Source of the DNA: Gemmatimonadota bacterium
GTDB lineage: Bacteria > Gemmatimonadota > Gemmatimonadetes > Gemmatimonadales > GWC2-71-9
NCBI GenBank assembly: GCA_003246755.1
Contig: QKDC01000124.1
Location: 1-34,286, forward strand
Direction of reading: 5' to 3'
DNA length: 34,286 bases
Positions 33,560 through 34,168 of this stretch are shown here, piece after piece. The notes below the pieces were generated by a model. It was not told the origin of the DNA. It made no database searches and saw only the letters and a program-made list of their open reading frames with translations. Each line of letters begins with the position of its first letter. Within the stretch, counting starts at the first letter, position 1. Both the position numbers and the translations under genes were made by a program.

Positions 33560-34168
33560 CTAACCTAACTCCGTCGTCGAGGTCTCCGAAAGCGACGTGT
33601 CGGCAGGCGCCTGCGCGGCATTGCGGAACTCCGCAATCAGTCGTGCCACGGGTGCCCGATCCCCATTGTTGCGCATCCGGTGCACAAACCTCACCCGATG
33701 ACTCCGATCCAGCACGAAATCTCCGCCAAGTTGAAACATGTCTGGCGCGAACCCGAGGAAGCGCTCGCCCCTGATGAGGAGCTTCAAGTAGCGCCAGTTG
33801 AGGCTCGGTGAGAGCATCGCACCGAACAAACCCGTACGGCCGAGACCCCAGGCGCGGTAGGCCACTCGTTCCGGATCAAAGAGGATCGGGAACGGGACCT
33901 CCAGTCCTCGCATCATCCTCGTACCGATCAACCCAGGACGGTCGTACGCCACAAGGACGACGACCCCGCCGATTTGGTCAATCTCTGCTTGTTGCTCAAT
34001 CACCTCGACCAGGTGAACGCGACAGAAGGGTCAGGCAGCGTGACTGAGAAAGGTGACGAGAATCGGTCGACCCTTCAGCGCCTTCAGCGCAAATTCGTTC
34101 CCATCCTCGTCGGGAAGGGTCAACGGCGGAGCGAAGTCACCGATTGAGCATGCGGGGCGAATCGTCAT
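33560..34168 (-). CDS. Peroxiredoxin/thioredoxin-fold (AhpC/TSA-like) probable selenoprotein, in-frame TGA (Sec46) at 34031-34033
   Basis: Manual translation: [45 protein letters not shown][U][33 protein letters not shown]…; SD-like GGAG 6 nt upstream of ATG 34168; homology-like signal continues on both sides of the TGA; SECIS-like hairpin downstream. Confidence 0.75.
34000..34016 (-). promoter_or_regulatory. Candidate bacterial SECIS element (apical hairpin)
   Basis: mRNA UCACCU-GGUCG-AGGUGA: 6-bp perfect stem, 5-nt loop starting GGUC, loop begins 21 nt after the UGA. Confidence 0.65.

Follow-up and report, generated by a model that had tools for sequence, protein, structure and literature searches.

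A probable SelL-related selenoprotein gene with an in-frame TGA at its redox site in a Gemmatimonadota genome

The window (the whole stretch of 34,286 nucleotides that was analysed) carries on its minus strand, from 34168 to 33560, a single 202-codon frame with one internal TGA, which raises the question of whether this codon ends translation or encodes selenocysteine (Sec) in a redox protein. A sequence-only reading had proposed the latter. The frame, the TGA coordinates, the start at ATG 34168 behind a GGAG and the UPFC motif that it described were all borne out by direct reading and translation, confirming that the window contains a gene with an internal TGA. The standard-code ORF listing yields just 33560..34003, from a GTG, exactly as that reading had reported, and the active site of the protein is missed by standard gene calling. 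The GGAG lies six bases upstream of the start; another in-frame ATG is found 21 nt further upstream, at 34189, and the start at 34168 was preferred because of the GGAG. A scan for frames bridged by a TGA, with a Cys close by and a SECIS-like hairpin, covered the window together with 69 kb from other contigs of the same genome; among the 13 candidates returned, the window gene alone was gene-like in appearance. A promoter and terminator scan found none. The features are collected in Table 1.

Table 1. Features of the candidate selenoprotein locus and of its TGA-containing homologue (positions are those of the window, except in the last line, where they are those of locus L178)
Feature	Position	Strand	Basis
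Predicted SelL-related / AhpC-TSA Prx-like selenoprotein gene, 202 aa with U46	33560..34168	-	translation with TGA as U; PF00578, PF13911 and NF040769 matches
Putative recoded TGA (Sec46), first position of UxxC	34031..34033	-	alignment with the Cys conserved in homologues; TGA of L178 in the same column
TGT, Cys49, last residue of UxxC	34022..34024	-	invariant column in the 36-sequence alignment A2
SECIS-like hairpin TCACCT-GGTCG-AGGTGA	34000..34016	-	fold of -8.2 kcal/mol on 33991-34018
GGAG, ribosome-binding site of ATG 34168	34175..34178	-	direct reading
katG, catalase-peroxidase	31303..33474	-	NF011635, 1248 bits; TIGR00198, 1186 bits
SelL-related gene with in-frame TGA, L178	907-1428	-	NF040769, 131 bits

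The domain analysis showed that PF00578 (AhpC-TSA) spans residues 9-160 and thus runs through the TGA, with a score of 57.1 bits against a gathering cut-off of 26. The 45 residues before the TGA match the start of PF00578 by themselves (E=2e-4, profile positions 1-35), indicating that the stretch upstream of the TGA is coding sequence of the same domain; the earlier reading had taken these codons for a typical peroxiredoxin (Prx) N-terminus and the TGA for internal. The piece after the TGA, the second half of the protein, also matches PF13911 (AhpC-TSA_2; 42 bits against a cut-off of 27). The best NCBIfam match was NF040769 (SelL_rel_redox), over residues 13-180, at 111 bits for the protein and 103 bits for the gene in the genome search; the curated cut-off is 120, and the protein is therefore related to this family and not filed as a full member.

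In true peroxiredoxins (PxxxTxxC), Thr stands three residues before the peroxidatic Cys; the motif of the window protein is UxxC. The one Bcp-type homologue that was aligned has Thr in the Sec46 column, as expected for the TxxC of a peroxiredoxin, indicating a UxxC Prx-like thiol:disulfide oxidoreductase and not a peroxiredoxin proper. The protein is accordingly best described as a SelL-related UxxC Prx-like thiol:disulfide oxidoreductase. The identity given in the sequence-only reading thus holds as far as an AhpC/TSA UxxC selenoprotein is concerned, with the refinement that Sec falls at the thioredoxin-type nucleophile position and not at the peroxidatic one. The AlphaFold2 model predicts a thioredoxin fold (pLDDT 86, pTM 0.83), with residue 46 immediately ahead of helix 47-58, and Foldseek matched this model to Bcp/PrxQ, AhpE, ResA and human PGFS.

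The residue that homologues carry at the TGA was then read from alignments. Whole-protein searches, made without selection on the motif, returned homologues with Cys in this column from Gemmatimonadota (L027-L031), Thermus, Acinetobacter, Mycobacteroides and Deinococcus plasmids; L027-L031, which are from genomes of the same family, have CPFC or CPVC at the motif. Alignment A2, of 36 sequences, shows no variation at residues 46 (Cys/Sec) and 49 (Cys), an agreement that is to be read as an alignment and not as a frequency, since most of its rows came from a scan requiring Cys. Likewise, the 80 Cys homologues from the alignment A1 scan of genome contigs are uninformative on the frequency of Sec because the pattern required Cys-Pro.

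The more direct comparison came from NF040769, which has matches in 11 of 399 genomes of the phylum. Two of the 11 have one in-frame TGA, at the Sec46 column in both cases: the window gene and L178, from a genome of the same order and another family (G110). L178 reads RPVVLVFLRHFG-U-MFCREQ, with the motif UMFC, and scores above the NF040769 cut-off. It is only 27% identical to the window protein, and its TGA is therefore not a copy of one error. These homologues carry Cys or, in L178, TGA at this column, which favours the selenocysteine reading. Searches gave no close homologue of the window protein, the best reaching 33% identity; used alone against genome contigs and viral contigs it found no relatives, and alignment A1 found none among the viral contigs. 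The window protein and L178 did not group together in a tree that included Sec and Cys forms; both are long branches, so the tree does not demonstrate separate origins of the two Sec forms.

Downstream of the TGA, a SECIS-like hairpin begins after 14 nt, with a loop of GGUCG on a 6-bp stem (UCACCU/AGGUGA), a stability of -8.2 kcal/mol and 20 nt between the TGA and the apical loop. In the published bSECIS model the apical loop measures 3-9 nt and the upper stem 4-16 bp, the UGA-loop spacing is 16-37 nt, the MFE is <= -7.5, and the first two positions of the loop contain a G, in most cases with G or U after it (PMC13188914); the window hairpin satisfies these constraints. The TGA codons of selD in the same genome and of L178 are likewise followed by hairpins with GGU in the loop, namely GGUGC at 32 nt and AGGU at 25 nt, respectively. 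In the DNA of the host, 15 of 3054 TGA triplets (0.5%) have such a hairpin behind them, and it arises in 1.4% (window), 2.7% (selD) and 4.8% (L178) of synonymous recodings of the same peptides, frequencies that are supportive and not strict because the GGU-loop criterion was fixed after the window hairpin had been seen. The full 50-nt fold was no more stable than shuffles (z -0.3).

The host genome is a Gemmatimonadota MAG of 3.15 Mb in 190 contigs, 95.8% complete. It encodes selA (523 bits), selB (308 bits) and selD (363 bits), all over curated cut-offs, and the host SelD has its own in-frame TGA in LSHGAG-U-ACKLG (GAG-U-ACK), the usual Sec site of SelD. selD (L021 1501-2418; G000:C127:17745-18662) is a second selenoprotein gene of this genome. 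The sequence-only reading had looked to selA, selB, selC and selD as its test; three of these genes are present, and selC, encoding tRNA-Sec, was not found in the fragmented assembly. Searches of this assembly with RF01852, three patterns and BLAST of the selC locus of a relative returned only tRNA-Leu, tRNA-Ser and chance matches, the RF01852 matches being other tRNAs by ARAGORN, and Rfam on the neighbourhoods of selA, selB and selD gave no tRNA-Sec. One contig of the host (C116) shows synteny with the relative's gene to the left of selC, and other genes occupy the place expected for selC. Among 100 relatives (genomes of the family and order), 75 have RF01852 over the cut-off, and all 30 loci read (L046-L075) are tRNA-Sec(UCA) by ARAGORN. 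Given a draft of 190 contigs at 95.8% and a selC match in 75 of the 100 relatives, the missing gene is most simply explained by a gap in the draft, and we infer that selC is present in the organism. Selenoprotein-containing genomes whose tRNA-Sec was absent from the assembly only have been described (PMC5330540). The RF01852 result also points to widespread Sec decoding in this group, on which the literature searched holds almost no selenoprotein work, Gemmatimonadota selenoproteins being hardly mentioned in it.

Three other explanations of the TGA were weighed against this evidence. A sequencing or assembly error could have created the TGA from TGC or TGT in a Prx-like gene of the ordinary Cys type; the gene is on a single MAG contig with its start 118 nt from the contig end, and most homologues have Cys. 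Such an error, however, would need to strike one of two catalytic codons among 202, yield TGA and happen by chance to precede a SECIS-like hairpin such as follows 0.5% of TGAs, in a genome with selA, selB and selD; moreover, the 27% identical homologue L178, from another family, has its TGA in this very column. We consider an error highly improbable. Much the same low probability attaches to a pseudogene or truncated gene, in which translation would stop at the TGA or restart at the GTG at 34003, in keeping with the standard ORF call. A restart there would lose the first beta strands and the entire redox motif, and the rest of the frame is intact, including Cys49 and the C-terminal part, and has no further stop or frameshift. 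Here too, a lone lesion would need to have hit the catalytic codon, as TGA, before a SECIS-like hairpin, in a Sec-decoding genome.

It is extremely unlikely that the TGA is decoded as another amino acid (Trp or Cys) through a suppressor tRNA or a code variant. The missing selC could be taken to favour this reading, but the genome has selA, selB and a SelD of the Sec type, and TGA terminates katG, cox1, NrfD, GMC and a kinase gene in the window. As TGA ends katG, cox1, NrfD and other window genes, it is not a reassigned codon, and a code change is very unlikely.

Taken together, the Cys column, the presence of selA, selB and selD and the second TGA homologue support the selenocysteine reading. 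The window gene is, with high confidence, a thioredoxin-fold selenoprotein gene with SelB-directed Sec at codon 46 in a UPFC redox site; the frame, the Cys/Sec column, the three sel genes and the hairpin are evident from the sequence, as is the predicted fold. In the cell, SelB with Sec-tRNA-Sec and GTP would bind the hairpin downstream of the UGA, and the ribosome would then insert Sec at codon 46. U46-P-F-C49 would form a thioredoxin-type redox site, whose selenolate, at the N-terminus of helix 1, would likely attack a disulfide or peroxide substrate; Cys49 would resolve the intermediate to a selenenylsulfide with Sec46, and a thioredoxin-like electron donor would probably re-reduce it.

With regard to the gene location, katG comes next, 85 nt further downstream and in the same orientation, and the two genes may be co-transcribed. 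The adjoining katG suggests a role of the selenoprotein in peroxide defence; no katG was found beside the homologues within the flanks examined. A broader proposal, that the gene represents a divergent Gemmatimonadota Sec subfamily of SelL-related proteins with an origin separate from that of L178 and is co-expressed with the catalase-peroxidase as a selenium-dependent peroxide-defence unit, is speculative and rather unlikely as a whole. Elsewhere on the minus strand, the window encodes two Ser/Thr protein kinases, each fused to beta-propeller repeats of the WD40-like (PD40) type (10420-13038 and 28600-31227), and a respiratory cluster (17744-27451) of cytochrome c, an NrfD-type membrane protein, COX1 and COX2, which we take to resemble alternative complex III with a haem-copper oxidase.

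The window protein was compared with known relatives. Prx-like thiol:disulfide oxidoreductase selenoproteins with PF00578 and UxxC or UxxU have been reported (PMC13188914 Table 1, PMC9312934); by these published descriptions, the window protein is like them in its PF00578 domain and in having Sec at the first position of UxxC, and differs in also matching PF13911 in its second half. That second half recalls the AhpC/TSA family selenoprotein of PF13911/cd02970 (PMC9312934, PMC13188914), which carries UxxS instead of UxxC. NF040769 has the TGA homologue L178 above its cut-off, whereas the window protein lies 9 bits below and on a long branch in the tree. SelL is found in fish, invertebrates and marine bacteria (PMC2397514). 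The window protein shares its Prx-like fold, and NF040769 is named after SelL. The SelL motif is UxxU with a diselenide; the window protein has one Sec and one Cys, and a selenenylsulfide, not a diselenide, would therefore form. Human prostamide/prostaglandin F synthase PGFS (PDB 9usa) has the same fold as the model (rmsd 2.2 A over 167 columns) and its own C44/C47 pair, but it is only 17% identical and is a Cys form with a prostaglandin substrate. The SelL-related family now has two distantly related Sec members in one order, and the window gene is a divergent new addition to the UxxC Prx-like selenoproteins already known.
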